Shown here piece after piece: positions 8,094 to 64,000 of a stretch of 64,000 nucleotides of DNA (its first letter is position 1; each line of letters starts with the position of its first letter). This DNA comes from Canna indica. Lineage: Eukaryota; Streptophyta; Magnoliopsida; Zingiberales; Cannaceae. A model generated the notes under the pieces. The model ran no database searches, was not told the DNA's origin, and saw only the letters and a program-made list of their open reading frames with translations. Position numbers and translations under genes: made by a program. The stretch spans positions 46,226,501 through 46,290,500 of the forward strand of contig CP136890.1 of NCBI GenBank assembly GCA_034359265.1. The letters run 5' to 3'.

Positions 8094-8550
8094 ATCAAGG
8101 ATACACCAAAAAATAGAGCCATTGCAGAGAGGTGGAGCATTCAGAGTTACCTCACTTATGTCCACCATGATTAATGTCACGCTATATGTTTATCTCATGA
8201 GCTTTATTACTTGCCCGAGTTGTGGGTATTCTGTGTGATACACTGCTTTTGCATGTGAGCTTTTATTTCTTGGCCCCGAGTTGTGGGTAATCCGTGTGAT
8301 GCATTTCTTGCATATTATATATTGTGCTTTACCCGGGCTGTGGGTTTCTTCTTGTTCCTCTTCCCCCAAGATTTTGGCTACTGCCTTGCTGATGGCAATG
8401 CCGAAGGTGAGGGGAGTGGTCTTTTCACTTGGGAGGATGAGAGAGCTCTACCATTCCTATTAATGGTCGGTCGTGTATGAACTCCATTGTATTTTTTTTT
8501 GAGAATTAATATATTTCCTTTGCCTTGTTGCAAAAAAAAAAAAAAAAAAA
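8094..8550 (+). mobile_element. LINE C, very short 3' copy (end of ORF2, 3' UTR, long poly(A))
   Basis: It begins with ATCAAGGATACACC, the last ~25 codons of ORF2, directly at the poly(A) of LINE B. It continues through a stop at about 8173 and a full 3' UTR, including GTTGTGGGT boxes near 8219 and 8282, to a ~19-nt A-run at 8532-8550. The join lies in an A-rich stretch present in the source (AAATAATCAAGG), compatible with microhomology or insertion into the tail of B. The 21-bp minisatellite starts immediately after the A-run. Confidence 0.88.
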
Positions 8551-26400: not shown

Positions 26401-27292
26401 CAAGTATCCCTTGATTTTTGTCTAAATGATGCCTCCTCATTAGCGTAGAGCCTTAGAAGTTCAGCCGTGCACTCTGCCTCTTCAATGATGGCCCTATCAT
26501 CCATATTTGTAGAGAGAGTGATAGTCTGTAAACCATGAAGCTTAGATTGCAGTGAATGTATCTGACTTTTTTGAGCCTTCATCAAGTCCCTAGACCACAT
26601 TTGTAGAGCCTTCCTGGTCCTTTTTAATTTGTGGATAAGAATAAACATTCTCGTAGTTCTGTGGCCGAATCTACTAGTGACAAGCGGGTTCCAAGCTGCG
26701 TCAACACAATCTAGGAATCCAGTTTCCCGAGGCCAATAATTAAAGAAATGGAAATTCTGAGGTCGCCAAGGTAAATTGCACACCCTAAATGTGACAAAAG
26801 TATGTCAGATACATCAGGGGTATGGAATGTAGCCTCTGAATCCGGAAATGCAGAAACCCAATTTTGATTGCATAGAACCCTGCCAAGTTTTTCGCATACC
26901 CTGTTGTTGGCTGTAGAAGAATTAGTCCACGTAAAGAAGTTACCTTTACTCTTCATATCAAATAGGCCCAAGTTATCAACGGTATCAGTAATACTCTCAA
27001 TGTATGAGCCATTAACATCGCTGCCCCCACGTTTTTCAGAAGGTGAGAAGACCATATTAAAATCACCAAAGACGGTCCAAGGCCCCTCAACATGATTTGC
27101 AAATGCATTTAAAGCAGTCCAAATATGGGTCCTATCATCATTAGAATAAAGACCATAAACCACAGAGAAGGAAAAGGTTGTACCTAGCTGAATAAACTTA
27201 ATACTACCCGAAATAACCTGATCTGTAGAAGCTATAATAGAAATATCCACTACAGCAGGATTCCAAATATACCATATTCGACCGTGATGATT
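23465..27292 (-). mobile_element. LINE E, best preserved ORF2 copy, 5'-truncated in the endonuclease
   Basis: Minus-strand copy whose poly(A) is the T-run 23465-23472, preceded by TTGCCTTGTTGC and the family 3' UTR with GTGTGGGT-type boxes. It runs to about 27292, inside the endonuclease domain (NHHGRIWYIWNP). There it meets the plus-strand LINE tail F head-to-head, with no ORF1 or 5' UTR in between. Confidence 0.93.
23808..27290 (-). pseudogene. LINE E ORF2, 991-codon open frame plus frameshifted endonuclease
   Basis: The 26783-23808 frame is open for 991 codons. It covers the linker, RT (DLHKAYDSVRWDFL, GLRQGCPMAPYLF, AFADDLIIF), the WFKGRVPMYSF segment and CCFCGVDESIEHLFFH. Upstream, 27250-26711 holds most of the endonuclease with GDFNMVFS. 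A single missing base near 26804 turns the GATCATACT of relatives into GACATACT, so the frame breaks exactly at the catalytic SDH motif. A second small deletion near 23935 replaces the usual C-terminus (IKDTPKNRAIAE, LTYVHHD) with an unrelated short tail. The endonuclease N-terminus (WNIRGLN, LETRV) is lost by truncation. RT activity of the open part is conceivable but untested. Confidence 0.92.
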
Positions 27293-27468
27293 TAGTAATT
27301 TGGCTACTACCTTGCTGATGGCAATGCCGAAGGTGAGGGGCGTGGTCTTTTCACTTGGGGGGATGAGAGAGCTCTACCATTCCTATTTAATGGTAGTCGT
27401 GTATGAACTCCATTGTATCTTTTTTGTGAATTAATATATTTCCTTTGCCTTGTTGCAAAAAAAAAAAA
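27293..27468 (+). mobile_element. LINE F, 3' UTR tail only, with poly(A)
   Basis: About 170 bp of the family 3' UTR, from TTTGGCTACTACC through the GATGGCAATGCCGAAGG block to TTTGCCTTGTTGC and an A-run. It directly abuts LINE E at its left (E points the other way) and the 161-bp satellite at its right. Confidence 0.88.
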
Positions 27469-35985: not shown

Positions 35986-36028
35986 AACTAGAGGTCCAAG
36001 TTCAAAACTCACTCATAACCATTAATTT

Positions 36029-36120
36029 TGCCAACTGTGGGTAGCACAGTTGGTGGAAACATGTTGATCGTTGCCTACAGATCTAGGGTTTGAATCCTAT
36101 TATGATCATCGTGACTTTTT
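36029..36120 (+). mobile_element. tRNA-derived SINE-like element (copy 1)
   Basis: Pol III promoter-like parts in order: box A-like TAGCACAGTTGGT (36042) and box B-like GGTTTGAATCC (36087-36097), followed by a T-rich end. The same module, with GTAGCAYARTTGGT and GAGATCT before box B, is found in minus orientation near 54632, 54731 and 57010, so it is a small dispersed family. It does not fold into a standard tRNA with a clear anticodon arm. Confidence 0.65.
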
Positions 36121-36154
36121 ATTTTTGTTCAATTAATTCTAAATTTTATATAGT

Positions 36155-36345
36155 ATAGCTTGCTTTAGTGGTTAAGATAAAATACTTTCCTCCCATCAAC
36201 TCAAGATCTAATCTTGATAGGGTAATATGATTATAAATGAATTATACTAATTTTTAGATCTCTCTATTTCTTTTGACCCCCTGGGAAGTCCTCGTGTTGC
36301 ACTACGAAAAATGAAGTTAAAAGTTGATGGTTCGAGTCTCATCGC
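36155..36345 (+). repeat. Second tRNA-like remnant fused to a 5S rRNA 3' fragment
   Basis: A box A-like segment (TAGCTTGCTTTAGTGGTTAA) starts near 36155. A 5S-rRNA-like 3' end lies at 36275-36302, and a box B-like GGTTCGAGTCT at about 36329. It seems to be a mosaic of Pol III-gene-derived pieces between satellite S1 and LINE G. The exact subunit limits are uncertain. Confidence 0.5.
36275..36302 (+). pseudogene. 5S rRNA 3'-end fragment (~28 bp)
   Basis: GACCCCCTGGGAAGTCCTCG followed by TGTTGCAC matches the conserved 3' end of plant 5S rRNA. The internal promoter region is absent. It is short enough to need comparison with a reference 5S; confidence comes from the near-perfect match and from two other 5S pieces at similar satellite boundaries. 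Confidence 0.65.
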
Positions 36346-36369
36346 CGGCCTTAAAAATTTAATTTTTGA

Positions 36370-40600: not shown

Positions 40601-43600
40601 TTTTTTTTTTGCAACAAGGCAAGTGTATTGTATTAATAATGAAGAAGGTGTGTACATGTAAAGTTCAGTAACCAATCACCGTAGGACAAAAGAGTCGTGA
40701 ACCTCACCTACGGCATAGCCATCAGCAAGGTCGAGACCCAAAACCTAGGGTTGAAGGTCCCACTACGATACAACCGTAGCAATCTAAAAAGAAAAGACAT
40801 CCCATAGCCCGGGAAAGGCACACAAGTCATGATGACCTAAACCTCACAAACTGAAACAAGTAATAAGCAATAAATCCCACAGCCCGGGAAAGGCTCACAA
40901 TCATACCGACACGTCTAGCAACATAGAAATAGGAATAAGCACTAAGTCCCACAGCCTGAAAAAGACAATAACCAAGAGAAAATGATATGCTTGGCTCAAA
41001 TCAAGGGTCATAAAAACACTGAATCCCCACAGCCCGGGACAGGCAACATCTCATGAAAGAAAAACAAAAGAAATAGAAGTGCATGAATAAACAAAAGACG
41101 CAGCATATCAGATTTCTGCATAGTGTCATCCAGGATATGTTTGGCAAGGGCCTCCCAAGATAAGTGTCCTTCCTCATGCATTCGCTGATTCCGCTCTCTC
41201 CACAGATGGTGAATAATGGTAGTGAGAAGAAGCTTTCTCAATAACTTGGCTTCAGAGGAGCCGCCAAAATGATGCAGAAGTCATGGCATACAATCTGCCA
41301 AGGTCTCTCCATGTGGTATCAACCCAAGTACCTTGCGCCAGATCTTTTGAGAGTAAGTGCAGCATAATAGGATATGATCTATGCTCTCGCTATCTTCTCT
41401 ACATAGGTAACAAATATTTGGCCCTTGCTTTCCCCATCCACGCGTGCGGTCAAATGTTGGGAGCCTTCTCCAGAAAGCCAGCCATGAGATGAAGGAGAAT
41501 CGAGGTACATGGCCTTTAAACCATAGCAAACTATGCCAAGCTACATCAGGATCAGTGGAAGTCAATTTGTTGTATGCCGACTTAAGGCTGAAAGTACCTG
41601 ATGGGGAAGCTGTCCAAAGAATGGCATCACACCCATGTCTATCATGAAGTCGGATCTGGTGTAATCTTAGCCATGCATCGAATAAGCATGAATGGTGGAA
41701 ACCAACCGTGTTCCACCCTTCAGGGGAAAGGATATCAGATACCAGATCAGTAGAGAGAGCAGGGATACCATAAGGGTATCGTCTGACAATGTGAAAGAGA
41801 ATCCCATCAGGGTGCCATGGGTCATGCCATAGCCTAGTACCCTCGCCATTTCCTATGTGGTGCCTGATGAATGGTCGAGCAAGATATCTAACGTTGAAAA
41901 TGCTCCTTGTCACCCAGGCAGGCGTAGAAGGGACCTGGCGAGTCCAGATAGAGTGCTCCCTCAAGTAATTGCTATAAACCCATCTCACCCAAAGTGAGTC
42001 TTTCTTAGATGCAATGGCCCATATGTATCTCATCATACATGCCTGATTAAGCTTCCTGATATTTCTCAGCCCCAATCCACCCTTTTCTTTTGGTTTGCAC
42101 ACGGACAACCAGGCGATCCGCTGGTTACACTTGATCAATCGGCCAGACCAAAGGAACCAGGCCAAGAGCTGCTCAATATGGATAATAACTTGTTGAGGGA
42201 GAGAAAAAGAAGAGCAACAATATAATATCTTCCCCATCAAAACAGATTTAATAAGCTCCAAGAGACCTGCAAAAGAGAGACATTTACTAGTCCATCCATT
42301 GATTTGTGACGCAATGCTATCCATGAGGGGCTGGAAGTCCTGGAATGATGGCCTAGTCGATAGTAGAGGAATCCCCAAGTATCGAACCGGTAGAGAACCA
42401 AAAGGCATGTCCAACACTGTAGCAATAGAAGCCCTCAGCTCTGGGGATGTGCCAGAGATGTATAAGTGGGATTTCAAGTTGCTCGTACGCAGACCTGAAA
42501 CTTGGTGAAAGTGCTCCAGACAATCCTTTAATATCGTGGCTGACATAATATCTCCCTTGGAGAATAAAACTAGATCATCAGCAAAGGACAAATGAGTAAC
42601 AAGTGGAGTTAGGAACCTATGGTGTGGTGTAAGCCGTCCAGATGCAACTTGATCATCCAATAGATCCGAAAAATACTGCATAGCGAGGATGAACAAGTAA
42701 GGAGCCATGGGGCATCCCTGACGGAGACCTCTGCTACTCTGAAAGAAACCACAGCTAGTGTCGTTCATGTTTATTGTAAATTTGGGATTGGAGATGCGTG
42801 CTTTGACCCAGCTAATCATAATTCCAGGGAAGCCATATTGTCTCATCAGTTCAAGCAGGAAATCCCATCTAACTGAATCGTAAGCTTTATGAAGATCGAT
42901 CTTGACTGCCATTCTAGGTGACCCTCGCTGCAAGTGATAGCCAGTCATAAGCTCATGACATAGAGCAATGTTTTCATGGATAGGACGGCCTTTCAGAAAA
43001 GCATGCTGGTTGGGACCAATGAATTCACCCAGGACCTTCTGCAACCTGTTTGCAATGATTTTAGAGATAAATCGATAAATTATTTTACATACCGATATGG
43101 GTCGGTAATCTGCAAAAGTATCAGGGCGCTTCTTCTTTGCCACTAATGTTATTGAAGTGATGTTGATTTCCTGAAGGAGGTATTTGGAATCAAAGAAGCT
43201 CTGGATAGCTCTAGTAACATCTTTCCCAATGATTCCCCACGTGCCCACAAAGAATTCTTTGGTAAAACCATCAGTTCCTGGAGCTTTGTTATTAGGCGAT
43301 TGCCGAATAGCTTCCAGTATCTCTTGAACGTGGATTGGTTTTCCCAGAAGTTCAATGCTTTCTTGCTTCAATCTTCTATGAATCTTGAGCCCCGAGAAAT
43401 CTACAGGATCAAATGGAGCATTAAACAGGTTAGTAAAGAAATTCACCGCTTCTTGATTCACCTGATCACCGTATACCCGCTACCCCAAATCATTCACAAT
43501 AGAGTGGATAGCATTCTTGTGGCATCTCTGCTTAAAGGCCCTGTAGAAATACTTAGAGTTGGAATCCCTAAGTTTGAGCCATTGGACTCTAGATTTCTGC

Positions 43601-43933
43601 TTCAGGCTTGCTTCTTCATCATTCAGAAAAGACTGAAGCCGCCCCACTCAGATCTCTTTCCTCCTTGTGTAAAGCGTTATCAAGTGGGCTTGCTGAATTC
43701 GAGTCTGCAGGACTTCAAGGTGATCTACTAATTTCCTCTTCTCCGCAGTGTCTCAAATGTGATTATTATAGGCCCACTGTTTGAGGGAATGCTTGGCAAG
43801 CTTAAGCTTTTGAACCAGAGAGAACATAGGTGAGGGTCTTCTACCATCTCTACATATTACAGGCTGAGTCCAAGCCTCTTCAACTACATTCAGAAAGTCA
43901 TGCTTATGAATCCATTGATTAAAGAACTTAAAT
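40601..43933 (-). mobile_element. LINE H, second LINE family, minus strand, 5'-truncated
   Basis: Starts at the T-run 40601-40610 and terminal TTGCCTTGTTGC (minus). It then has a long 3' UTR with four CTGTGGG-type boxes at about 40800, 40876, 40948 and 41025, spaced 72-79 bp. ORF2 follows, truncated upstream within the endonuclease-RT linker. Protein similarity to the main family is clear but much lower, so this is a separate family. It meets tail I of the same family head-to-head at about 43934. Confidence 0.92.
41008..43933 (-). pseudogene. LINE H ORF2: reverse transcriptase and C-terminal cysteine motif
   Basis: The 43461-41281 frame (726 codons) has RT blocks KIDLHKAYDSVRWDFL, GLRQGCPMAPYLF and LSFADDLVLF, then WFKGHVPRFSF and the cysteine motif CYLCREDSESIDHILLC. 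A further C-terminal piece (HHLWRERNQRMHEE) lies in another frame at 41241-41008, so the end is frameshifted. Upstream, 43933-43461 shows linker sequence in broken frames (for example a TAG near 43480). The endonuclease is absent. No RNase H motif was seen. Confidence 0.9.
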
Positions 43934-44218
43934 GGGCATTTCCCGGGCTATGGGATTTACTGCTTATTGCTCATTTCTTTGAGAATATTTGAGTAGTGTG
44001 CCTTTCCCCGGGCTGTGGGGTTGTTCTTTATTGAGCTTGCTACATTTTTAAGGTAGCGGAACCATCACTACTAGGTTTTGGGCCTCGACCTTGCTGATGG
44101 CAATGCCGAAGGTGAGGTGCGCGACCCTTTTGTCCTAGGGTGATTGGCTATTGCACTTTTCATGTACACATCCCTTTTATTATTAATACAAATTCACTTG
44201 CCTTGTTGCAAAAAAAAA
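43934..44218 (+). mobile_element. LINE I, 3' UTR tail of the H family with poly(A)
   Basis: Plus-strand 3' UTR with two CCCGGGCTRTGGG boxes (about 43945 and 44006), GATGGCAATGCCGAAGG, and a terminal TTGCCTTGTTGC with A-run 44210-44218. It matches the 3' UTR of H in family-specific positions (GTCCTA.GGTGATTGG, TATTATTAATACAA). It is placed head-to-head with H and followed at once by LINE J. Confidence 0.88.
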
Positions 44219-45816: not shown

Positions 45817-48800
45817 TTTTTTTTTTGCAACAAGACAAAGGAAATATATTAATTCACAAAAAAGATACAATGGAGTTCATACACGACTACCATTAAATAG
45901 GAATGGTACAGCTCTCTCATCCCCCAAGTGAAAAGACCATGCCCCTCACCTTCGGCATTGCCATCAGCAAGGTAGTAGCCAAAACCTTGGGAGAAGAGGA
46001 ACAAAGAAGAAACCCACAGCCCGGGGTCAGGCACAATATAGAATATGCAAGAAATACATCAATTACCCACACCTTGGGCCAAGTAATAAAAGCTCACATG
46101 CACAAGCACTGTATCACACGGAATACCCACAACTCGGGCCAAGTAATAAAGCTCATAAGATCATAGCGTGACTTTAATCATGGTGCACATAAGTGAGGTA
46201 ACTCTAAATGCTCCACCTCTCTGCAATGGCTCTATTCTTTGGTGTATCCTTGATTGTTTTGGTAGCATAATCCTGAAGGATCTTGCCTTTAACTTCTACA
46301 ATAATACTACTAAGAACGCTCGTAGATGTAGAGGAGACATGTGAGAAAATACGATCATTTCGCTCACGCCAAATGAAGTAAACTGAAGCAGTGAGAGTAA
46401 TGCGTCTAATATAGCCAACTAGTGTGTCCCCACGCATGACGTCTTCCCACCATTTAAGCTGGTCCTCCCAGTGATGCAGGGGGTTAGCCAAGAGACAACG
46501 ATCTAGAATCTGGCACCATATGATAGTTGAGAAGGGGCAGTGGAAGAATAGGTGCTCAATGGACTCATCCACACCGCAAAAACAACAACAGGAAGAGTGA
46601 GTAATCCCCCAATGTGAGAGACGATCAAGAGTTGGTAGTCTCCGTAAGAGCACAAGCCACAGTATAAAAGAGTACCTCGGGACCCTTCCTTTGAACCAAA
46701 CAAGATGATGCCAAGAAGTTATAGGGTTAGCGGATGAAATGCCAATGCAAGCTGAAGCAATACTAAAACGACCATCTACAGACGGTCTCCAAAGCACCTG
46801 ATCTCCATTAGAACCTGTGTTCACAGTGCCAATAGAATCCCAAGCACTATGCAAGACAAGTTCATGGCCAAGGTTGCCCAACTGCCAATTATTGTGTTGC
46901 CAAATAGATGAAACCCTAGCGGTCCTACTTGAGTAGAGGCGGGCCAGAATGTGATCATTCATCCTGTCAATAAGAAGATTACCAGGAATCCAAGGATCAA
47001 GCCAGAGAAATATACTACGGAAACACCAATGCGATACTATACAAGTTCCTTTGCTTGATCACGAGTGAAAAGGATACTACGGAAACACCAAGAGCAGGCC
47101 TGTGACTGTCGTACAGTCCAAATAGAGTCATTGTTGAGGAATTTAGAGCTAATCCAACGGATCCATAGAGAGTCTTTCTTTGAAGCAATAGCCCAAATAT
47201 TCCTCATAAGGTACGCAATGTTAAGGTAAGAGAGTCGATGAAGCCCAAGCCCACCATTTTGATACGATTGACAAATGTCATCCCAGGAGACCTTATGGAA
47301 GCTTCTTTTATCATCCCCACTCCACAGGAATCTAGCAAGAAGTTGTTCAATACGAGATATGACTCTCTTGGGTAGCTTGTAAGTGGCGCACCAATAGGTG
47401 ATCTTACCCTGTAAAACAGATTTAATAAGAGCCAACCTGCCCATGTAAGATAAATGTTTTGCCTTCCAAGAGTGAATGCGGCTCTGGATGCTCTCAATAA
47501 GAGGGAGGCAATCATTATATGTAAGCTGCTTGATAATAAGAGGGACACCTAGGAATCGAGTGGGGAGAGCACCAATAGGAATACCAAGAATGTCCTGAAC
47601 TCTGTTCATCAGGTCGCTAGAGCACCCCGCCATATACAGATTAGACTTGGTAGTACTAGTGGATAGCCCTGAGATGTCTGCAAAGGACCCCAATCCATCC
47701 TTGATCGCTCTAGCATTGGACTCTGAGGCTTCGGCAAATATAATGAGATCATTTGCAAATGCAAGGTGAGTAATAAGTGGATTTGCACAACTCGGGTGTG
47801 GAGTGATCATACCTTGCTGGACTAAGTCATCAAGACGAGAAGATAAGTGCTGCATAACAATAAGGAACAAGTAAGGAGCCATGGGGCAGCCTTGTCTAAG
47901 GCCTCGAGAAGTCCGAAAGAAACCCACAGAAGAGCCATTAATATTGATAGTAAAGGAGGGATTAGAAACACAGGCTCTAATCCAACTGACCATCATAGTA
48001 GGGAACCCATGCAAGTGAAGTAACTGAAGCAGGAAATCCCATCGAACTGAATCATAGGCCTTATGGAGGTCAACTTTGATGGCCATGCGTTTCTGCCCAG
48101 AGTTAAGATGATAGTTGTGCATAAGACTATGGCACAGAGCAATATTTTCATGTATGAGCCTACCACTCATAAAGGCATGTTGGGTTGGGCTAATCAAATC
48201 AGGTAATACAACCTTGAGCCTATTCGCAATAAGCTTTGAAATAAATCTGTAGATCATCTTGCAAATAGAGAGAGGACGGAAATCAGAAAATGAGTTGGTG
48301 TTCTCCTTCTTAGGAATAAGAGTGATGGAGGTAATATTAACTTCACTAAGAAGTTTACCGGTCCTAAAGAACTCAAGAATGGCAGCAATAACATCATCCT
48401 TAATGATAGACCAACAAGATTTATAAAATTCAGCATTTAATCCATCAACGCCAGGGGCCTTATCAGAATTTGATGATAGGATTACTTGTTCAATCTCTTG
48501 AGGGGTAACCGGCTGAGACAACAGGGATATGCTTTGTTGGGAGAGGCAACTTTGGACATGAACATTAGAAAGATTCACATGAGGAATCTCAGGAGCAAAT
48601 GTCCGAGTAAAGTAGGTGATAGCTTCTTGATCAAGAGCTTGGCCTTCGAGAATATTTCCATCTGCATCTTTAATAGAAAGTAAGGCATTCCTATTATATT
48701 TGAACTTTAAAGAATTATGAAAAAACTTTGAGTTTGAGTCACCAAGGCGTAACCATGTATCCCTTGATTTTTGTCTAAATGATGCCTCCTCATTAGCGTA

Positions 48801-48823
48801 GAGCCTTAGAATTTCAGCCCTGC
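45817..48823 (-). mobile_element. LINE K, main family, minus strand, 5'-truncated
   Basis: T-run at 45817-45826, the family 3' UTR, and ORF2 up to the region just after the endonuclease (RLYANEEASFRQKSR). At about 48823 it gives way to inverted 21-bp minisatellite (T3). It is very similar to LINE E over its whole length. Confidence 0.92.
46204..48822 (-). pseudogene. LINE K ORF2: RT and C-terminal domain, frameshifted
   Basis: The 48578-47037 frame (513 codons) contains NAEFYKSCW, PKKENTNSFSDFRPLSICK, DLHKAYDSVRWDFL and GLRQGCPMAPYLF. The catalytic box is AFANDLIIF: the first Asp of FADD has become Asn, which should abolish catalysis. Near 47030 a rearranged repeat of ACTACGGAAACACCAA (46994-47090) breaks the frame. 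The C-terminal part continues at 46962-46204 with WFKGRVPRYSF and CCFCGVDESIEHLFFH, and ends early at a TAG where relatives read CAG. Confidence 0.9.
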
Positions 48824-49526
48824 GAAAAGTTGAGAACTTGGTTTAGAAAGTTGAGATCTCTGTTCGGAAAGTTGGAAACTTGGTTCGGAAAGACAGAAAC
48901 TTGGTTCGAAAAGTTGGGAACTTTGTTCTAAAAGTTGAGAATTTGGTTCGAAAAGTTGGGAACATGGTTCTGAAAGTTGGGAACTTTGTTCGGAAAGTTG
49001 AGAACTTGGTTCGGAAAGTTGGAAATTTCGTTCGGGAAGTTGGGAACCTAGTTTCGAATGTTGGGAGGTTCCTTCCGAAAGTTGAGAACTTGGTTCCAAA
49101 AGTTAACAACTTGGTTCAGAAAGTTAGAAACTTGGTTCGGAAATTTGGAATTTTGGTTTCGAAAATTGGGAACCTCGTTCGAAAAGTTGGGAACTTTGTT
49201 CCTAAAGTTTTGAACTTGGTTCGAAAAGTTGAGCACTTGGTTCAGAAAGTTGGGAACTTGGTTTCTAAAGTTGGGAACTTGATTCGAAAAGTTGAGAACT
49301 TGGTTCGCAAAGTTAGGAACTTGGTTCGGAAAGTTGGGAACTTGGTTAGGGAAGTTGGAAAATTATTTCCGAAAGTTGGAAACTTCATTCCGAAAGTTGG
49401 TAACTTGATTCCGAAAGTTGGTAACTTGATTCTGAAAGTTAGGAAATTAGTTCAAAATATGGGAACTTTGTTCGGAAAGTTGGGATCTTGGTTTGGAATA
49501 TTGAGAACTTGGTTCCGAAAGTTGGT
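48824..49526 (-). repeat. 21-bp minisatellite block T3, inverted (about 33 units)
   Basis: Same repeat as T1/T2 but in opposite orientation (AAGTTGGGAACTTGGTTCGG units). It lies between the truncated 5' end of LINE K and the truncated 5' end of LINE L. The right junction shares AAGG with LINE L. A 237-codon plus-strand open frame through it is a by-product of the 21-bp period. Confidence 0.93.
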
Positions 49527-51170
49527 AAGGTATGATCACTCCACACCCGAGTTGTGCAAATCCACTTATTACTCACCTCGCATTTGCAGATGATCTCATT
49601 ATATTTGCCGAAGCCTCAGAGTCCAATGCTAGAGCGATCAAGGATGTATTGGGGTCCTTTGCAGACATCTCAGGGCTATCCGCTAGTACTACCAAGTCTA
49701 ATCTGTATACGGCGGGGTGCTCTAGCGACCTGATGAACAGAGTTCAGGACATTCTTGGTATTCCTATTGGTGCTCTCCCCACTCGATTCCTAGGTGTCCC
49801 TCTTATTACCAAGCAGCTTACATATAATGATTGCCTCCCTCTTATTGAGAGCATCCAGAGCCGCATTCACTCTTGGAAGGCAAAGCATTTATCTTACATG
49901 GGCAGGTTGGCTCTTATTAAATCTGTTTTAAAGGGTAAGATCACCTATTGGAGCGCCATTTACAAGCTACCCCAGAGAACCATATCTCATATTGAACAAC
50001 TTCTTGCTAGATTCCTGTGGAGTGGGGATGATAAAAGAAGCTACCATAAGGTCTCCTGGGATGACATTTGTCAATCGTATCAAAATGGTGGGCTTGGGCT
50101 TCATCGACTCTCTCACCTTAACATTGCGTACCTTATGAGGTATATTTGGGCTATTGCTTCAAAGAAAGACTCTCTATGGATCCGTTGGATCAGCTCTAAA
50201 TTTCTCAACAATGACTCTATTTGGACTGTACGACAGCCACAGGCCTGCTCTTGGTGTTTCCGCAGTATCCTTTTCACTCGTGATCAAGCAAAGGAACTTG
50301 TATAGTATCGCATTGGTGATGGTATGAATATATTTCTCTGGCTTGATCCTTGGATTCCTGGTAATCTTCTTATTGACAGGATGAATGATCACATTCCGGC
50401 CCGCCTCTACTCAAGTAGGACCGCTAGGGTTTCATCTATTTGGCAACACAATAATTGGCAGTTGGGCAACCTTGGCCATGAACTTGTCTTGGATAGTGCT
50501 TGGGATTCTATTGGCACTGTGAACACTGGTTCTAATGGAGATCGGGTGCTTTGGAGACCGTTTGTAGATGGTCGTTTTAGTATTGCTTCAGCTTGCATTG
50601 GCATTTCACCCGCTAACCCTATAACTTCTTGTCATCATCTTGTTTGGTTCAAAGGAAGGGTCCTGAGGTACTCTTTAATACTGTGGCTTGTGCTCTTACG
50701 GAGACTACCAACTCTTGATCGTCTCTCACATTGGGGGATTACTCACTCTACCAGTTGTTGTTTTTGCGGTGTGGATGAGTCCATTGAGCACCTATTCTTT
50801 CACTGCCCCTTCTCAACTATCATCTGATGCCAGATTCTAGATCGTTGTCTCTTGGCTAACCCCCTGCATTACTGGGAGGACCAGCTTAAATGGTGGGAAG
50901 ACGTCATGCGTGGGGACACACTAATTGGCTATAATAGACGAATTACTCTCACTGCTTCAGTTTACTTCATTTGGCGTGAGCGAAATGATCGTATTTTCTC
51001 ACATGTCTCCTCTACATCTACGAGCGTTCTTAGTAGTATTATTGCAGAAGTTAAAGGCAAGATCACCTCAGGATTATGCTACCAAAACAATCAAGGATAC
51101 ACCAAAGAATAGAGCCATTGCAGAGAGGTGGTGCATTCAGAGTTACCTCACTTGTGTCCACCATGATTAA
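49527..51170 (+). pseudogene. LINE L ORF2: C-terminal RT and cysteine motif
   Basis: Open from 49532 with AFADDLIIF and the thumb-like region to a TAG at 50303 (relatives TCGAG). It continues 50324-50827 with WFKGRVLRYSL and CCFCGVDESIEHLFFH to a TGA where relatives have TGG, then 50852-51112 with INDR/NDRIFSHVSS, and a frameshift near 51066. The final frame ends IKDTPKNRAIAE...HHD at about 51170. It is truncated before the RT active-site-proximal blocks and non-functional. Confidence 0.9.
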
Positions 51171-51524
51171 TGTCACGCTATGATCTTATGAGCTTTATTA
51201 CTTGGCCCGAGTTGTGGGTATTCCGTGTGATACAGTGCTTGTGCATGTGAGCTTTTATTACTTGGCCCGAGGTGTGGGTAATTGATGTATTTCTTGCATA
51301 TTCAATATTGTGCCTGACCCCGGGCTGTGGGTTTCTTCTTTGTTCCTCTTCTCCCAAGGTTTTGGCTACTACCTTGCTGATGGCAATGCCGAAGGTGAGG
51401 GGCATGGCCTTTTCACTTGGGGAGATGAGAGAGCTCTACCATTCCTATTTAATGGTAGTCGTGTTTGAACTCCATTGTATCTTTTTTGTGAATTAATAAA
51501 TTTCCTTTGCCTTGTTGCAAAAAA
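49527..51524 (+). mobile_element. LINE L, main family, 5'-truncated in RT, with poly(A)
   Basis: Starts within RT (GGTATGATCACTCCACACC) directly after T3 and runs through the ORF2 end and 3' UTR to an A-run near 51519. The tail carries an ATA/TAA expansion before the satellite resumes with ACTTGATTAAC. Left of it is minisatellite, so no target duplication can be recognised. Confidence 0.92.
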
Positions 51525-51536
51525 TAATAATAATAA

Positions 51537-54500
51537 TAACTTGATTAACAACTTCTCCCATCACACTGAATGTTCTGGAGTCGCTCGGGACTCAGATTGT
51601 TGGTCGTTTCGACCCGATATGCCGAAGTTGAATTAGTCGTCTTCGTTCAAGATTCTGTTCAAAAAAGCGTATAATTCTCTGCATTAGTCTATCATAAATA
51701 ACTCGATTAACAACATCTCCCATCACAATGAATGTTTGGAGTCGCTCGAGACTCAGATTGCTGGTCGTTTCGAGCCGATACACCGAAGTTCAATAAGTGG
51801 ACTTCGTTCAAGATTCAATCAAAAAAGCGTATAATTCTTTGCATTAGTCTGTCAAAAATAACTCGATTAACAATTTCTCCCATTGCAGTGAATGTGCTGG
51901 AGTCGCTCGGGACTTTGATTGCTCATCATTTTGAGCAGATACGGGGAGTTCAATCAGTCGGCTTCGGTCAAGATTTTGTTCGAGAAAACTTGAAATTCTT
52001 TTTATTAGTCTATCAAAAATAACTCGATTACCAACTTCTCCCATCACAGTGAAAGTTTTGCAGTCGCTCGGAACTCAGATTGCTGGTTGTTCCGAGCCGA
52101 TACGCCGAAGTTCAATCAGTCGACTTCGTTCAAGATTCTGTTCGAAAAAGCTTATAATTCTTTGCATTAGTCTGTCAAAAATAACTCGATTAACAACTTC
52201 TCCCATCATAGTGAATGTTCTGTAGTCGCTCGGGACTCAGATTGCTGTTCATTTCGAGCCGATATACCGAAGTTCAATTAGTCGACTTCGTTCAAGACTC
52301 TGTCCGAAAAAATGTATAATTCTTTGCTTCAGTCTGTCAAAAATAACTCGATTAACAACTTCTCCCATCATAGTGAATGTTCTGGAGTCTCTTAGGACTC
52401 AGATTGCTGGTCATTTTGAGCCGATACCACGAAGTTCAATCAGTCGGCTTCGTTCAAGATTCTATTCGAACATGTGTGTAATTCTTCGCATTAGTCTGTA
52501 AAAAATAACTCGATTAAAAACTTCTCCCATCACAGTCAATGTTCTAGAGTCGCTCGGGACTCAGATTGTTGGTTGTTTCGAGCCGATACGTCGAAGTTCA
52601 ATCAGTCGACTTCATTCAAGATTCTGTCCGAAAAATAGTATAATTCTTTGCTTCAGTCTGTCAAAAATAACTCGATTAACAACTTTTCCCATCATAGTGA
52701 ATGTTCTGGAGTTGCTCGGGACTCAGATTGCTGGTCGATTTGAGCCGATACCCCGAAGTTCAATCAGTCGGCTTCGTTCAAGATTTTGTTCGAAAAAGTG
52801 TGTAATTCTTCGCATTAGTTTGTCAAAAATATCTCGATTAACAACTTCTCCCATCATAGTGAATGTTCTGGAGTCGCTCGGGACTTAGATTGCTCGTCAT
52901 TTCGGGCCGATACGGGCAGTTCAATCAATCGGCTTCGTTCAATATTGGCTTCGTTTAAGATTTTGTTTGAAAAAGCATGCAATTCTTTGCATTAAGCTAT
53001 CAAAAATAACTCGATTAACAACTTATCCCATCGCAGTGAATGTTTTGGAGTCGCTCGGGACTTAGATTGCTCGTCATTTCGATCCGATACGGGCAGTTCA
53101 ATCAATCCGCTTCGTTTAAGATTTTGTTTGAAAAAGCATGCAATTCTTTGCATTAGGCTATCAAAAATAACTCCATTAACAACTTATCCCATCACAGTGA
53201 ATGTTCTGGAGTCGCTCGGGACTTAGATTGCTCATCATTTCGGGCCGATACGGACTGTTCAATCAATCAGCTACGTTCAACATTGTGTTCGAAAAAGCGT
53301 ACAATTCTTTGCATTAGGTTGTCAAAAATGACTCGATTAACAACTTCTCTCATCATAGCGAATGTTCTAGAGTCTCTCGGGACTCAGATTGCTGGTTGTT
53401 TCGAGCCGATACGCCGAAGTTGAATCAGTTGACTACGTTCAAGATTCTGTTCGAAAAACCGTGTAATTATTTGTATTAGACTATCAAAAATAACTCGATT
53501 AACAACTTCTCCGATCATAGTGAATGTTCTGGGGTCGCTCGGGACTCTGATTGCTCGTCATTTCATATGGATACGGGGAGTTCAATCAATCGGCTTCGTT
53601 CAAGATTTTGTTCGAAAAGGAGTGCAATTCTTTGCATTAGGCTGTCAAAAATAACGTGATTAACAACTTCTCCCATCACAGTGAATGTTCTGGAGTCTCT
53701 CAGGACTCAGATTACTTGTCGTTTCAAGCCGATACGCCGAAGTTCAATCATTCAACTTCGTTCAAGATTATGTTCGAAAAAGCGTGTAATTCTTTGTATT
53801 AGGCTGTCAAAAATAACTCGATTAACAACTTCTCCCATCATAGTGAATGTTCTGGGGTCGCTTGGGACTCTGATTGCTCGTCATTTCAAACGGATACAGG
53901 GAGTTCAATCAATCGGCTTCGTTAAAGATTTTGTTCGAAAAGGAGTGCAATTCTTTGCATTAGGCTGTCAAAAATAACTCGATTAACAACTTCTCCCATC
54001 ACAGTAAATGTTCTGGAATCGCTCGGGACTCAGATTGCTGGTCATTTCGAGCCGATACGCCGAAGTTCAATCAGTCGACTTCGTTCAAGATTATGTTCGA
54101 AAAAGCATGTAATTCTTTGTATTTGGTTGTCAAAAATAACTCGATTAACAACTTCTCCCAACATAGTGAATGTTCTGGGGTCGCTCGGGACTCTGATTGC
54201 TCGTCATTTCGAGCGGATACGGGGAGTTCAATCAATCGGCTTCGTTCAAGATTTTGTTCGAAAAGGAGTGCAATTCTTTGCATTAGGTTGTCAAAAATAG
54301 CGTGATTAACAACTTCTCCCATCACAGTGAATGTTCTGGAGTCGCTCGGGACTCAGATTGCTGGTCGTTTCGAGCTGATATGCCGAAGTTCAATCAGTCG
54401 ACTTCGTTCAAGATTATGTTAGAAGAAGCGTGTAATTCTTTGTATTTGGCTGTCAAAAATAACTCGATTAACAACTTCTCCCATCATAGTGAATGTTCTG

Positions 54501-54631
54501 GAGTCGCTTGGGACTCTGATTGCTCGTCATTTCCATCGGATACGGGGAGTTCAATCAATCGGCTTCGTTCAAGATTTTGTTCGAAAAAGAGTGCAATTCT
54601 TTGCATTAGGCTGTCAAAAATAACTCGATTA
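51537..54631 (+). repeat. 161-bp satellite array S2 (about 19 units)
   Basis: Same unit and orientation as S1. It starts at the ACTTGATTAAC phase directly after the tail of LINE L and ends at AACTCGATTA (54622-54631), which is one copy of a target duplication. From about 53500 onward two monomer types alternate, giving a dimer of 323 bp. Confidence 0.94.
54622..54631 (+). repeat. Target-site duplication, left copy (block 1)
   Basis: AACTCGATTA here equals 56220-56229 immediately after the poly(A) of LINE M. It brackets the composite insertion 54632-56219, and the satellite unit continues in phase on the far side. Confidence 0.75.
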
Positions 54632-54722
54632 GTCATAATAAGTGATCAAATTAAGATTCGAATCCTAAATCTTTAAGCAACGTTCAACGTGTTGCGACCA
54701 ATTGTGCTACTCACAATTGGCA
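54632..54722 (-). mobile_element. tRNA-derived SINE-like element (copy 2)
   Basis: On the minus strand: GTGAGTAGCACAATTGGT (box A-like), then GATTTAGGATTCGAATC (box B-like), ending next to the satellite. Same module as copy 1. No intact tRNA fold was recognised. Confidence 0.65.
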
Positions 54723-54728
54723 AAAAAA

Positions 54729-54812
54729 TAGTGTATAATGAGGTTTGAACTCCAGATCTCTAAATATATTCAAGATGTTATCACCAACTATGCTACTCAC
54801 GGTTCACTAATG
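54729..54812 (-). mobile_element. tRNA-derived SINE-like element (copy 3)
   Basis: On the minus strand: GTGAGTAGCATAGTTGGTGA (box A-like), GAGATCTGGAGTTCAAACC (box B-like), then a T-run separating it from copy 2. The head-to-tail pair of copies 3 and 2 may be a dimeric element. Confidence 0.65.
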
Positions 54813-54828
54813 ATGTGTTTTTTAAAAA

Positions 54829-54899
54829 GAGTGCAACACGAGGACTTCCGAGGGGGTCACCCATCCTAGTACTACTCTCACCCAAGCACGCTTAACTTT
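54829..54899 (-). pseudogene. 5S rRNA fragment (3' ~70 nt), fused to LINE M
   Basis: On the minus strand it contains AAGCGTGCTTGGG, GAGAGTAGTACTAGGATGGG, TGACCCCCTCGGAAGTCC and TCGTGTTGCACTC, that is, the promoter C-box region and 3' end of plant 5S rRNA. The 5' ~49 nt are missing: after AAGTTAAG the sequence switches to plus-oriented LINE ORF2. Not a functional gene. Confidence 0.88.
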
Positions 54900-55844
54900 A
54901 CAACGATTCCATTTGGACTGTACAACAGCCACAGGCCTGCTCTTGGTGCTTATGCAGTATCCTTTTTGCTCGTGATCAAGCAAAGGAACTTGTCGAGTAT
55001 CGCATTGGTGATGGTATGAATACATTTCTCTGGCTTGATCCTTGGATTCCTGGTTATCTTCTTATTGACAGGATGAATGATCACATTCCGGCCCGCCTCT
55101 ACTTGAGTAGTACCGCTAGGGTTTCTTCTATTTGGCAGCACAATACTTGGCATCTGAGAAACCTTGGCCATGAACTTGTCTTGCATAGTGCTTCGGATTC
55201 CATTCGCACTGTGAACACTAGGTCGAATGGAGATTAGGTTCTTTGGAGGCCGTCTGTAGATGGTCGTTATAGTATTGCTTCAGCTTGCATTGGCATTTCA
55301 CTCGCTAAACCTATAACTTCTAGGCATCATCTTGTTTGGTTCAAAGGAAGGGTCCCGAGGTATTCTTTCATATTATGGCTTGTGCTCTTATGTAGACTAC
55401 CCACTCTTGATCGCCTCTCACATTGGGGGATTACTCACTCCACCAGTTGTTCTTTTTGCGGTGTGGATGAGTCCATTGAGCACCTATTCTTCCACTGCCC
55501 TTTCTCAACTATTATATGGTGCGAGATTCTAGATCGTTGTCTCTTGGATAACCCCTTGCATCGCTGGGAGGACCAGCTTAAATGGTGGGAAGACGTCATG
55601 CGTGGGGATACACTAGTTGGCTATATCAGATGCATTACTCTCACTGCTTCAGATTACTTCATTTGGCGTAAGCGAAATGATCGTATTTTCTCTCATGTCT
55701 CCTCTACATCCACAAGCGTTCTTAGTTAAAGCCAAGATCCTTCAGAATTATGCTACCAAAACAATCAAGGATACACCAAAAAATAGAGCCATTGCAGAGA
55801 GGTGGAGCATTCAGAGTTACCTCACTTATGTCCACCATGATTAA
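54900..55844 (+). pseudogene. LINE M ORF2 C-terminal region
   Basis: Carries the DGMNTFLWLDPWIPGYLL segment, WFKGRVPRYSF and the cysteine motif CSFCGVDESIEHLFFHC, ending ...YLTYVHHD at 55844. Lesions: a TAG at 55235 where relatives have CGG, and a deletion near 55727 (SVLS followed by a shortened KAKILQNYATK). RT active-site blocks are absent through truncation. Confidence 0.9.
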
Positions 55845-56219
55845 TGTCACGCTATATGTTGATCTTATGAGCATTATTACTTGGCCCGAGTTGTGGGTAT
55901 TTCGTGTGATACGTTGCTTGTGCATGTGAGCTTCTATTACTTGGCTCGAGTTGTGGGTAATCCGTGTGATGCATTCCTTGCATATTCTATATTGTGCTTG
56001 ACCCGGGTTGTGGGTTCCTTCTGTGTTCCTCTTCTCCCAAGGTTTTGGCTACTCCCTTACTGATGGCAATGCCGAAGGTGAGGGGCGTGGTCTTTTCACT
56101 TGGGGGGATGAGAGAGCTCTACCATTCCTATTAATGGTAGTCGTGTATGAACTCCATTGTACTTTTTTTTGTGAATTAATATATTTCCTTTGCCTTGTTG
56201 CAAAAAAAAAAAAAAAAAA
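54900..56219 (+). mobile_element. LINE M, 5'-truncated C-terminal ORF2 + 3' UTR + poly(A)
   Basis: Starts at CAACGATTCCATTTGGACTG (late ORF2) immediately after the inverted 5S fragment. It has the full family 3' UTR with GTTGTGGGT boxes (about 55894, 55954, 56009) and an A-run ending at 56219. It is the right part of the composite insertion flanked by the AACTCGATTA duplication. Confidence 0.92.
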
Positions 56220-56713
56220 AACTCGATTAACAACTTCTCCCATCACAGCTAATGTTCTTGAGTCGATCGGAACTCAGATTGCTTGTCGTTTTAAGCCGAT
56301 ACCCCGAAGTTCGATCAGTCGGCTTCGTTCAAGATTCTGTTCGAAAAAGCGTGTAATTCTTTGCATTAGTCTGTAAAAAATAACTCGATTAACAACTTCT
56401 CCCATCACAGTGAATATTCTAGAGTCGCTCGGGACTCAGATTGCTGGTTGTTTCGAGCCGATACGCCGAAGTTCAATTAGTCGACTTCGTTGAAGATTAT
56501 GTTCGAAAAAGCATATAATTCTGTGCATTAGTTTGTCAAAAATAACTCGATTAACAACTTCTCCCATCACAGTTAACGTTCTAGAGTCGCTGGGACTTAG
56601 ATTGCTCGTCATTTCGAGCAGATACGGGGAGTTCAATCTGTCGGCTTCGTTCAAGATTATTTTCTAAAATGCGTGTAATTCATTGCATTAGTCTGTCAAA
56701 AATAACTTGATTA
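56220..56713 (+). repeat. 161-bp satellite block S3 (3 units)
   Basis: Three units between composite insertions 1 and 2. The left edge is the right copy of the AACTCGATTA duplication; the right edge is AATAACTTGATTA (56701-56713), the left copy of the second duplication. Confidence 0.93.
56701..56713 (+). repeat. Target-site duplication, left copy (block 2)
   Basis: AATAACTTGATTA is identical to 57694-57706 after the poly(A) of LINE N. Both carry the less common T in CTTGATTA (most monomers have CTCGATTA), so the match is not simply the repeat consensus. Confidence 0.85.
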
Positions 56714-56730
56714 ATTATTAAATCATAAAC

Positions 56731-56753
56731 GCTAGAAGGAGGGCTTGAACCTC

Positions 56754-56786
<33 letters not shown>

Positions 56787-56803
56787 AACTGAGCTATTCC
56801 AGC
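56731..56803 (-). tRNA. tRNA-Asn (GTT)
   Basis: Plant nuclear-type tRNA-Asn on the minus strand: 5' GCTGGAA acceptor pairing with TTCTAGC (7 bp, one G-T pair); D arm TAGCTCAGTTGGTTAGAGC (box A); anticodon stem TGTGG/CCACA with loop CTGTTAA giving anticodon GTT; T arm GGAGG-TTCAAGC-CCTCC (box B). The discriminator base is G at 56730. The fold is complete, without an intron. No run of four or more T follows closely on the minus strand (TTTATGATTTAATAA), so efficient Pol III termination is doubtful. It lies 24 bp downstream of a 5S copy in the same orientation, inside an insertion bounded by a 13-bp duplication. It may be expressed or may be a recently moved copy. Confidence 0.95.
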
Positions 56804-56827
56804 TTGTTAAAACAGGAGTGCAATACG

Positions 56828-56947
56828 AGGAGTGCAACACGTGGACTTCCTAGGAGGTCACCCGTCCTAGTACTACTCTCGCCCAAGCACGCTTAACTTC
56901 GGAGTTCTAATGGGATCCGGTGCGTTAGTGCTGGTATGATCGCACCC
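56828..56947 (-). rRNA. 5S rRNA, full-length single copy
   Basis: 120-nt plant-type 5S on the minus strand: start GGGTGCGATCATACCAGC; internal promoter region AAGCGTGCTTGGG and the C-box area GTACTAGGACGGGTGACC; end TGTTGCACTCCT. Differences at the 3' side (CCTAGGAAGTCCACG where CCTGGGAAGTCCTCG is usual) suggest a diverged, orphan copy. The 3' end is partly duplicated (GAGTGCAATACGAGG at 56815). The upstream sequence has no clear TATA-like motif at the usual distance. It stands outside any 5S tandem array and is probably not a main contributor to 5S rRNA. Confidence 0.92.
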
Positions 56948-57007
56948 TTAATAAGTAATCAAACATTAATTCCATACCCCTCTAACTATCTTAGCAAACT
57001 TCATTAT

Positions 57008-57076
57008 CGTAAAATTTATTGAGGTTCGAACCTCAAATCTCTAAGGAATTTGTAATTATTATCACCAACTGTGCTT
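57008..57076 (-). mobile_element. tRNA-derived SINE-like fragment (copy 4)
   Basis: On the minus strand: AGCACAGTTGGTGATAA (box A-like), GAGATTTGAGGTTCGAACC (box B-like), then an AT-rich end. It is truncated at its 5' side by the junction to LINE N. Confidence 0.65.
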
Positions 57077-57358
57077 AGATGGTGGGAAGACGTTATGAGT
57101 GGAGACTCATTCATTGGCTATATTAGGCGTATTGCTCTCGCTGATTCAGTTTACTTCATTTTGCGTGAGCGGAATGATCGTATTTTTTCTCATGTATCCT
57201 TTTCACCTGCTAGTGTGCATAGCAGTGTTATCACAAGAGTTAAAAGCAAAATTCTTCAGATATATGGTACCCAGGCCTATCACCGACACACCAAGGAACA
57301 AGCTATTGCAGAACGGTGGAGCGTTCAAGTCCATTTCACTCCTGTCCGTCAAGATTAG
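57073..57358 (+). pseudogene. LINE N ORF2 extreme C-terminus
   Basis: Uninterrupted ~95-codon frame (RWWEDVMSGDSF, YFILRERNDRIFSHVS, EQAIAERWSVQ) ending at TAG 57356-57358. It matches the last ~95 residues of the main family's ORF2 with many replacements. No catalytic domain is present, so it is not functional alone. Confidence 0.88.
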
Positions 57359-57693
57359 TGATTCACTGTGTGGGCTTTTATTGCTTGGCCCCGAGTTGTG
57401 GGTCGTCCATGTGATATTTCTTACTTGGCCCGAGTTGTGGGTAATCCGTGTGATGCATTGTTTGCATCTCTATATTGTGCTTGACCTGGGCTGTGGGTTT
57501 TCCTTTTGTTCCTCTTCTCCTAAGGTTTTGGCTACTACCTTGTTGATGGCAATGCCGAAGGTGAGGGGCGTGGTCTTTTCCTTTGGGGGATGAGAAGCTC
57601 TACCATTCCTATTAATGGTAGTCGTATATGAACTCTATTGTATCCTTTTACGTATTAATATATTTCCTTTGCCTTGTTGCAAAAAAAAAAAAT
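57073..57693 (+). mobile_element. LINE N, short 3' copy with poly(A)
   Basis: Begins at TTAGATGGTGGGAAGACG (ORF2 C-terminus) and has a 3' UTR with GTTGTGGGT boxes (about 57396, 57435, 57492) and an A-run to 57693. It is more diverged from the main group than M or L, so it is another subfamily. Right part of composite insertion 2. Confidence 0.9.
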
Positions 57694-60600
57694 AATAACT
57701 TGATTAACAAGTTCTCCCATCACAGTGAATGTTCTCGAGTCGCTCGGGACTTAGATTGCTCGTCATTTCGAGCAGATACGGGGAGTTCAATTAGTCGGCT
57801 TCGTTCAAGATTCTGTTCGAAAAAGCGTATAATTCTTTGCATTAGACAGTCAAAAATGACTTGATTAACAAATTCTCCCATCATAGTGAATGTTCTAGAG
57901 TCGCTCGAGACTCAGATTGCACGTTATTTCGAGCAGATACGGGGAGTTCAATCAGTCGGCTTCGGTCAAGATTTTGTTCAAAAAAGCTTGTCATTCTTTA
58001 CATTAGTCTGTCAAAAATAACTCGATTAACAACTTCACCCATCACAGTGAATGTTTTGGAGTCGCTCGGCAGTCAGATTGCTGGTCGTTCCGAGCCGATA
58101 CCACGAAATTCAATCAGTCGGCTTCATTCAAGATTCTGTTCGAAAAACCGTGCAATTCTTTGCATTAGGCTTTCAAAAATAACTTGATTAACAACTTGTC
58201 CCAACACAGTGAATGTTCTGGAGTCGCTCGGGACACAGATTGCTCATAATTTCGAGCCGATAGGGAAGTTCAATCAATCGGCTTCGTTCCTGATTCTGTT
58301 CGAAAAAACGTATAATTCTTTGCTTTAGTCTGTCAAAAATAACTCGATTAACAACTTCTCCCATCACACTGAATGTTCTGGAGTCGCTCGGGACTTAGTT
58401 TGCTCGTCATTTTGAGCAGATACGGGGAGTTCAATCAGTCAGCTTCGTTCAAGATTCTGTTCGAAAAAGCGTGTAATTCTTTGCATTAGTTTGTAAAAAA
58501 TAACTCGATTAACAACTTCTCCCATCACAGTGAATGTTCTGGAGTCGCTCGGGACTCAGATTGCTCGTTATTTCGAGCAGATACGGGGAGTTCAATTCGT
58601 CGGCTTTGTTCAAGATTCTGTTCGAAAAAGCGTGTAATCCTTTGCATTAGTCTGTCAAAAATAACTCGATTAACAACTTCCCCCATCACAGTGAATATTC
58701 TAGAGTCGCTCGGGACTCAGAATGCTGGTCGTTTGGAGCCGATACCCCGAAGTTCAATCAATCGGCTTCGTTCAAGATTCTATTCGAAAAAGCGTATAAT
58801 TCTTTGCATTTTGTTTATCAAAAATAACTCGATTAACAACTTCTCCCATAATAGTGAATGTTCTGGAGTCGTTTCGAGCCAATACCCCGAAGTTCAATCA
58901 GTCGGTTTCGTTCAAGATTCTGTTCCAAAAAGCGTGCAATTCATTGCATTAGGCTGTCTAAAATAACTCGATTATGAACTTCTCCCATTAGAGTGAATGT
59001 TCTGGAGTTGCTCAGGATTCAGATTGCTCGTCATTTCGAGCAGATCCGGGGAGTTCAATAGGTCGGCTTCGTTCAAGATTTTGTTCGAAAAAGCGTATAA
59101 TTCTTTGCATTAGTCTGTCAAAAATAACTCGATTAACAACTTCTCCCATCACAGTGAATGTTCTAGAGTCGCTCGGGACACAGATTGCTCATAATTTTGA
59201 GTCAATAGGGGAGTTCAATCAATCGGCTTCGTTCCTAATTCTGTTCGAAAAAACGTATAATTCTTTGCATTAGGCTATCAAAAATAACTCGAATAACAAC
59301 TTCTCCCATTACAGTGAATGTTCTGGAGTCGCTCGGGACTCAGATTGCTCGTCATTTCGGGCCGATACGAGCAGTTCAATCAATCGGCTTCGTTCAAGAT
59401 TCTGTTTGAAAAAGCGTGTAATTCTTTGCATTAGTCTGTCAAAAATAACTCGATTAACAACTTCTCCCATCACAGTGAATGTTCTGGAGTCGCTCGGGAC
59501 TCAGATTACTCATCGTTTCGAGCCGATACCCCGAAGTTCAATCTGTAGGTTTCGTTCAAGATTCTGTTCGAAAAAGCGTGCAATTCATTGCATTAGAATG
59601 TCTAAAATAACTCGATTAACAACTTCTCCCATCAGAGTGAATGTTCTGGAGTAGCTCAGAATTCAGATTCCTGGTCATTTCGATCCGATAAGGGCAATTA
59701 AGTCAATCGGCTTCGTTTAAGATTTTGTTCGAAAAAGAATGCAATTCTTTGCATTAGGCTATAAAAAATAACTAGATTAACAACTTATGCCATCACAGTG
59801 AATGTTCTGGAGTTGCTCGGGACTCAGATTGCTGGTTGTTTCGGGCCGATACGCCGAAGTTCAATCAGTCGACTTTGTTCAAGATTCTATTCGAAAAAGT
59901 GTATAATTATTTGCATTAGTATGTCAATAATAACTCGATTAACAACTTCTCCCATCACAGTTAATTTTCTGGAGTCGCTCGGGACTTAGATTGCTCGTCA
60001 TTTCGAGCAGATACGGGGAGTTCAATCAGTCAGCTTCGTTCAAGATTATGTTCTAAAATGCGTGTAATTCATTGCATTAGTCTGTGAAAAATAACTCAAT
60101 TAACAACTTCTCCCATCACAGTGAATGTTCTGGAGTCGCTCGGGACCTAGATTGCTCGTCATTTCGAGTAGATACGGGGAGTTCAATCAGTCGGCTTCGT
60201 TCATGATTCTGTTCGAAAAAGCGTGTAATTCTATGCATTAGTCTGTCAAAATAACTCGATTAACAACTTCTCCCATCACAGTGAATGTTTTGGAGTCTCT
60301 CGGGACTCAGATTGCTCGTCATTTCGATCCGATACGGGCAATTCAGTCAAACGGCTTCGTTTAAGATTTTGTTCGAAAAAGCATACAATTCTTTGCATTA
60401 AGCTATCAAAAATAACTCTATTAACAACTTATCCCATCACAACGAATGTTCTGGAGTTGCTCGGGACTCAGATTGCTGGTTGTTTCGAGCCGATACGCCG
60501 AAGTTCAATCAGTCGACTTTGCTCAAGATTTTGTTCGAAAAAGCGTATAATTATTTGCATTATTCTGTAAAAAATAACTCGATTAACAACTTCTCCCATC

Positions 60601-63628: not shown

Positions 63629-64000
63629 ATCCCCCAATGTGAGAGGCGATCAAGAGTAGGTAGTCTTCGTAAGAGCACAAGCCATAATATGAAAGAATAC
63701 CTCGGGACCCTTCCATTGAATCAAACAAGATGTTGCCAAGAAGTTATAGGTTTAGCGAGTGAAATGCCAATGCAAGTTGAAGCAATACTATAACGACCAT
63801 CTACAGACGGCCTCCAAAGCACCTGATCTCCATTCAAACTAGTGCTCACAGTGCCAATGGAATCCCAAGCTCTATGCAAGAAAAGTTCATGGCCAAGGTT
63901 TCCCAGATGCCAAGTATTGTGCTGCCAAATAGAATAAACCCTAGCGGTCCTACTCGAGTAGAGGCGGGCCGGAATGTGATCATTCATCGTGTCAATAAGA
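63629..64000 (-). mobile_element. LINE O fragment, main family, minus strand (continues beyond window)
   Basis: ORF2 sequence in minus orientation covering MNDHIPARLYSSRTARV to ITSWQHLV (63987-63721), and beyond that, toward 63629, RLPTLDRLSHWGI. It starts mid-ORF2 at the satellite junction, without 3' UTR or poly(A), so this edge is a recombination or deletion breakpoint, not an insertion end. Confidence 0.9.

Follow-up and report, generated by a model that had tools for sequence, protein, structure and literature searches.

Inverted chains of small RNAs joined to LINE 3' ends in a satellite of Canna indica, probably formed by single LINE insertions

A 64-kb stretch of the Canna indica genome (contig CP136890.1, positions 46,226,501 to 46,290,500; the window in what follows) contains two satellites, with units of 161-162 bp and 21 bp, together with many long interspersed nuclear elements (LINEs) of the L1 type. 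The 161-bp satellite is interrupted by two composite insertions, A and B. Each consists of an inverted chain of small-RNA sequences followed by a plus-oriented, 5'-truncated LINE with a poly(A) tail, and each is enclosed as a whole by a short target-site repeat. Each composite probably arose in a single LINE insertion during which reverse transcription extended the two target ends; this would be twin priming in trans with template switching. The evidence is the sequence of the 64-kb window.

Composite A is a 979-bp interruption of the satellite (56715-57693). The original prediction had described a satellite interrupted by tRNA-Asn, 5S rRNA and a piece of a short interspersed nuclear element (SINE), all on the minus strand, together with a plus-oriented, 5'-truncated LINE with poly(A), and matches from ARAGORN, Rfam and a SINE profile bear this out. 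From the LINE outward, the minus strand carries the SINE (57075-56948), 5S rRNA (56947-56829), a 14-nt repeat, tRNA-Asn (56803-56730), and a 15-nt trailer. The SINE has a tRNA-like head and is 5'-truncated, its profile match beginning at model position 10, and about 36 nt of internal sequence are missing from it in comparison with the SINEs of B and of a third chain, C, described below. The 5S rRNA covers model positions 1-120 (Rfam, 107.9 bits), and its first nucleotide directly adjoins the SINE 3' end with no gene spacer between them. Beyond the 5S lies an imperfect 14-nt repeat of its 3' end (56814-56827, minus strand), which could be an aborted copy or the result of later slippage, and then GTTTTAACAA (56804-56813, minus strand), in which GTTTT, following the 5S piece, looks like an RNA polymerase III (Pol III) terminator and AACAA may be a short tRNA leader. 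The tRNA-Asn(GTT) is full length (ARAGORN; Rfam, 71.7 bits), and the 15 nt past its 3' end (56715-56729, minus strand) may be tRNA trailer or untemplated. Chance matches as the source of these small RNAs were set aside on the Rfam and ARAGORN scores. The LINE 3' end of A (57073-57692, plus strand) consists of 608 bp (57073-57680) and a tail of 12 A, after which there is one T. At the SINE/LINE joint the 3 bp GCT are common to both ends.

Composite B (54632-56219) lies 495 bp to the left of A. Its inverted chain contains a two-monomer tRNA-like SINE (54632-54806, minus strand), apparently complete with an estimated 5' start, and then the 3' part of a 5S rRNA (54829-54899, minus strand, followed by five T and 16 unplaced nt), which is cut at its 5' side at the LINE junction. 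The chain is followed by a 5'-truncated LINE with poly(A) (54900-56219, plus strand). The 5S runs into the five T, and 16 nt of no assigned origin lie between it and the SINE; the 5S/LINE joint is blunt or has one extra T. An extension of the 5S as aligned by Rfam (54900-54930) was rejected as LINE sequence forced into the model. The possibility that the SINE of B represents two separate RNAs was dropped, since the SINEs of B and C align through both monomers and therefore form one two-monomer SINE.

The target repeat of A, AATAACTTGATTAA, was identified by sequence comparison. It is 14 bp long and surrounds the whole block, with the left copy at 56701-56714 and the identical right copy at 57694-57707. 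The 13-bp target duplication of the original prediction thus flanks the block as claimed and is one base longer than stated. The predicted minority T variant was also found in both flanks; it occurs at 14 of the 77 exact AATAACTNGATTAA sites, the two flanks of A included, and the window holds 117 near-matches to the target 14-mer. The repeat of B is 10 bp long, AACTCGATTA, and likewise encloses the entire block (left copy 54622-54631, right copy 56220-56229, the first AA of which merges with the A tail). In a breakpoint control, each satellite position was taken as the left breakpoint and compared with the fixed right flank. For A, a repeat of 14 bp or more arises at 45 of 17,746 positions (0.25%, the real site included), and one of 10 bp or more at 90 of 17,752. 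The 10-bp repeat of B is reached at 577 of 17,746 positions. Excision of the insert together with one repeat leaves a marker spacing of 160 bp in A and 161 bp in B; single-unit satellite spacings elsewhere in the window are mostly 160-162.

The outer repeat and the restored satellite spacing make one event per composite the best explanation, which agrees with the claim that block A entered as a unit. Two successive insertions, a small-RNA chain and later a LINE beside it, are conceivable in that both parts are retrosequences able to use one site. This history is very improbable, however, because no target repeat was seen between chain and LINE in A or B and the outer repeat spans both parts in the two closed composites (2/2). 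A and B share 82% identity in their LINE 3' parts and differ in the RNA order of their chains, so they are separate insertions; a duplication of one event was set aside on the same grounds.

Matches to this SINE, to 5S and to tRNA were found in the window only at A, B and chain C (approximately 35993-36360), and 5S matches of at least 30 nt also occur only in these three. Chain C meets the satellite at its left. It begins with a 5'-truncated two-monomer SINE (35993-36137, plus strand) that adjoins the satellite at about the phase of A and B. Further along are 30 nt of a 5S rRNA 3' end (36274-36303, plus strand), ending 2 nt short of where the A copy ends, and a candidate tRNA 3' half (36304-36360, plus strand) proposed from a box-B-like motif, GGTTCGAGTCT. 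An Rfam rescan of chain C found no tRNA or 5S; it returned 4 matches, the best with an E value of 3. The interval 36150-36273 is unclassified, carries a box-A-like TAGCTTGCTTTAGTGGTTAAG, has no credible Rfam match, and is perhaps another SINE. The composite event is not a singleton, because B and C, which the original prediction does not mention, exist in the same window. Chain C is weaker evidence than A and B on account of its orientation and its lost right end.

Across the window the SINE profile recovers four chain units at E values of 3e-14 or below and five further matches at E 0.42-8.2; these five include the tRNA-Asn and a match to the opposite strand of the A SINE. A relaxed Rfam scan gave 14 matches. 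Three of them are the two small RNAs of A, 5S and tRNA, and the 5S of B; the remaining 11 belong to miRNA, snoRNA and sRNA families (E 0.09-6.8, far below gathering) and were read as chance, as was a 12-nt 5S match at 2195 (E 0.83).

The three 5S copies are spaced 1.9 and 18.5 kb apart. This spacing bears on the idea that the chain is part of a fixed element, either a long terminal repeat (LTR) element of the Cassandra type or a 5S-derived SINE. Such elements are described as carrying 5S or tRNA-like promoters (PMC10886601), a point of resemblance to the chains. A Cassandra-type element would carry a 5S segment in each of its two LTRs; a scan of 54500-57800, an interval that does not take in chain C, showed no LTR-like pair. 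A 5S-derived SINE would show a constant order of parts, and the order differs among the window copies A, B and C; the outer repeats measure 10 and 14 bp. A fixed element is accordingly the least credible of the explanations considered and deserves hardly any weight.

Four partial units of the chains are regarded as firmly identified: the SINE of A, the 5S of B, and the SINE and 5S of C. All four are without 5' sequence. The 3' end is kept in each, except that the 5S of C is without its last two bases. Four units are few, but as far as they go this truncation pattern and the joints are close to what would be predicted for copying from RNA 3' ends with jumps, and unlike what random pieces of genomic DNA would be expected to give.

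The capture of genomic filler, in which the gap left by a LINE insertion is repaired by copying or ligating DNA of a small-RNA gene cluster, should be judged against this pattern. Flanking repeats and microhomology at joints also fit end-joining repair, and the unassigned 15 and 16 nt could be gene flanks. Filler is nevertheless unlikely. All chain units that were identified are of Pol III type, 5' sequence is missing from each of the four firmly identified partial units, and the neighbours A and B, having different orders, would require separate donor clusters. It is disfavoured because the neighbour B has another RNA order and the joints fall near RNA ends.

A further alternative is that the small RNAs were first ligated into a chimeric RNA and that this RNA served as the template on which the second target end was extended. 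RNA ligation is among the published models for LINE chimeras, as presented in PMC13174262, and the exact 5S 5' end in A is in keeping with it. The 14-nt piece of 5S in A, if it is an aborted copy, is more readily explained by template jumping, but slippage is another possible origin. Ligation ahead of copying is considered quite improbable.

The preferred explanation, a single LINE insertion with reverse transcription from both target ends, would account for the order, orientation and truncation of the units and for the duplication as follows. The LINE endonuclease would nick the satellite in a T-rich stretch, and the enzyme, presumably that of the LINE, would copy its own poly(A) RNA. The plus LINE 3' end with its A tail adjoins the duplicated site. 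The 3' end of the opposite strand would prime on a Pol III RNA rather than on the LINE RNA. The enzyme would copy the primed RNA and jump to further small RNAs, in A from tRNA-Asn to 5S and SINE and in B from SINE to 5S, until copying stopped inside the last RNA of the chain. The two unfinished cDNAs would then be joined, in A with 3 bp shared and in B bluntly or with 1 nt, and repair would duplicate the 10-14 bp between the nicks. The suggestion in the original prediction that the inverted part arose when the second target end primed on a different RNA is thus retained as the best explanation. Order, orientation, truncation pattern and duplication are seen in the sequence itself, while nicking, priming, template jumps and the enzyme involved are inferred.

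Several points weigh against this explanation. The 10-bp repeat of B is not rare on its own, given the outcome of the breakpoint control. Simple copying does not explain the internal gap of about 36 nt in the A SINE, and a 5' truncation does not explain it either. Some joints are not end to end: the chain of A finishes in a 15-nt trailer of no assigned origin, and that of B includes the 16 nt between 5S and SINE. An RNA ligase that joined the small RNAs before copying would give equal anatomy. The orientation of chain C is sense, the same direction as the LINE downstream of it and opposite to that of the chains of A and B; later insertions obscure the right end of C, and neither a LINE 3' end nor a right flank can be assigned to it. 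Finally, the SINE profile was built from the same four chain units that it recovers, and the SINE ends were deduced from in-chain copies.

A more general formulation is offered only tentatively and is doubtful at present. It holds that this plant LINE may routinely extend the second end on Pol III transcripts, the T-rich cut end pairing with the LINE poly(A) and the A-ending 3' end with oligo-U tails, and that the reverse transcriptase might walk from RNA to RNA, end to end, and so write chains of small-RNA cDNA into the genome.

The LINEs of the window show a preference for one position in the satellite. There are 11 LINE 3' ends with a GTTGC-poly(A) signature (7 plus, 4 minus). Four of the 11 adjoin the 161-bp satellite, and all four stop at one phase within about 5 bases. 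A and B have their left ends at the preferred phase, and C has its left end approximately there. Among the eight satellite borders in the window only the one at 63626 is off the phase. At the insertion site the bottom strand is T-rich at the phase common to the four LINE ends, which may mark a site of the LINE endonuclease type. The B LINE 3' part is 93-98% identical to the six other window copies compared. The A LINE 3' part is 82-83% identical to five of these six and 93.5% identical to a short 160-bp copy at 27299. By these identities the A and B LINEs are assigned to different subfamilies. Proteins above the cut-off in a search with one LINE protein number 859; the best 120 of the 859 are 27-49% identical, and those with a named organism are all from flowering plants.

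Other LINE arrangements were observed in the window. In three head-to-head LINE pairs (23465-27464, 40601-44218 and 45817-51516), a minus LINE with its T tail forms the left side and the 3' part of a plus LINE, with its A tail, forms the right side. In the third pair (45817-51516) about 700 bp of the 21-bp satellite lie between the 5' ends. The outer flanks of these pairs differ, and the pairs may be rearrangement joints. A second LINE family is present at 40602-44218. Over about 560 bp it shares about 66% identity with the main family, and its two head-to-head pieces, compared over about 300 bp, share only 79%. At 63629-64000 an inverted internal LINE piece stands beside the satellite at another phase; it may represent an ordinary 5' inversion that runs past the end of the window. 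At 3528-8095 one LINE is nested in another, and about 326 bp of the host copy are apparently missing where it resumes after 8088.

Close parallels to A and B come from mammals. For human L1, chimeras with 5S and tRNA are reported in PMC13174262 to be mainly antisense and are attributed there to twin priming; like A and B, they have an inverted small RNA and target duplications. Inverted chimeras of L1 with U1, U2 and U5, and one with U6, are described in PMC4476161. The remark in the original prediction that the parts of mammalian chimeras usually share one orientation therefore holds for U6 but not for these other classes. Two features of a twin-primed chimera, a small RNA inverted at the LINE 5' end and a duplication around the whole block, are present in A (14 bp) and B (10 bp); the sense orientation of C does not conform. 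There are also differences. In the human chimeras, as PMC13174262 describes them, halves predominate among the tRNAs, and the 5S commonly starts at the LINE junction and has lost its 3' part. A and B have two to three RNAs in series with 3' ends kept, so that the truncated side is reversed. The terms 'tripartite', 'multiple RNA' and 'two RNA' are absent from the main text of that source. The U1, U2, U5 and U6 chimeras, according to the account in PMC4476161, share with A and B the opposite orientation, the target duplication, and a model of top-strand priming on a small RNA. They differ in having a single small nuclear RNA (snRNA) that is 3'-truncated with internal priming, and in occurring in mammals.

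Serial jumps are known from the tripartite chimeras of Magnaporthe and mouse, which are characterised in PMC2104539 by two jumps per insertion, the combination of another RNA, a SINE or snRNA, and a LINE, and repeats of 14-16 bp, as here. Those jumps are described as taking place in LINE first-strand synthesis, whereas the chains of A and B are on the opposite strand. In such collinear chimeras all parts follow the LINE orientation; the small-RNA parts of A and B are inverted, and C is collinear without a paired right end. In plants, Arabidopsis Sadhu elements are non-LTR retroposons with foreign sequence, attributed in PMC2848041 to template switching or transduction. That sequence is 19 bp or 150 bp of other origin; '5S rRNA' has no match in the text, and the portion consulted contains no inverted small-RNA chain. 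Cassandra, Helenus and Ajax include 5S or tRNA-like sequence within a mobile element, as here. By the description in PMC10886601 they differ from A and B in being LTR elements with paired LTRs, and plant Helenus has 5-bp duplications. Among the matches listed in a literature search whose coverage left most subscription journals outside, there was no published case of a plant inverted small-RNA/LINE chimera, nor among the matches listed was there one of serial small RNAs on the inverted strand or of inverted small RNAs with kept 3' ends. These comparisons suggest that A and B are an unusual plant form of an event known in mammals.

If this explanation is correct, twin priming in trans would extend to plants, and the second-strand reaction could switch templates several times. 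Chains of this kind combine Pol III promoters with SINE heads and LINE tails in a single step and would be a plausible birth route for composite SINEs. The satellite, with its preferred insertion phase and an uninterrupted site represented by roughly a hundred nearby units of the window, would provide a countable test bed for such events.

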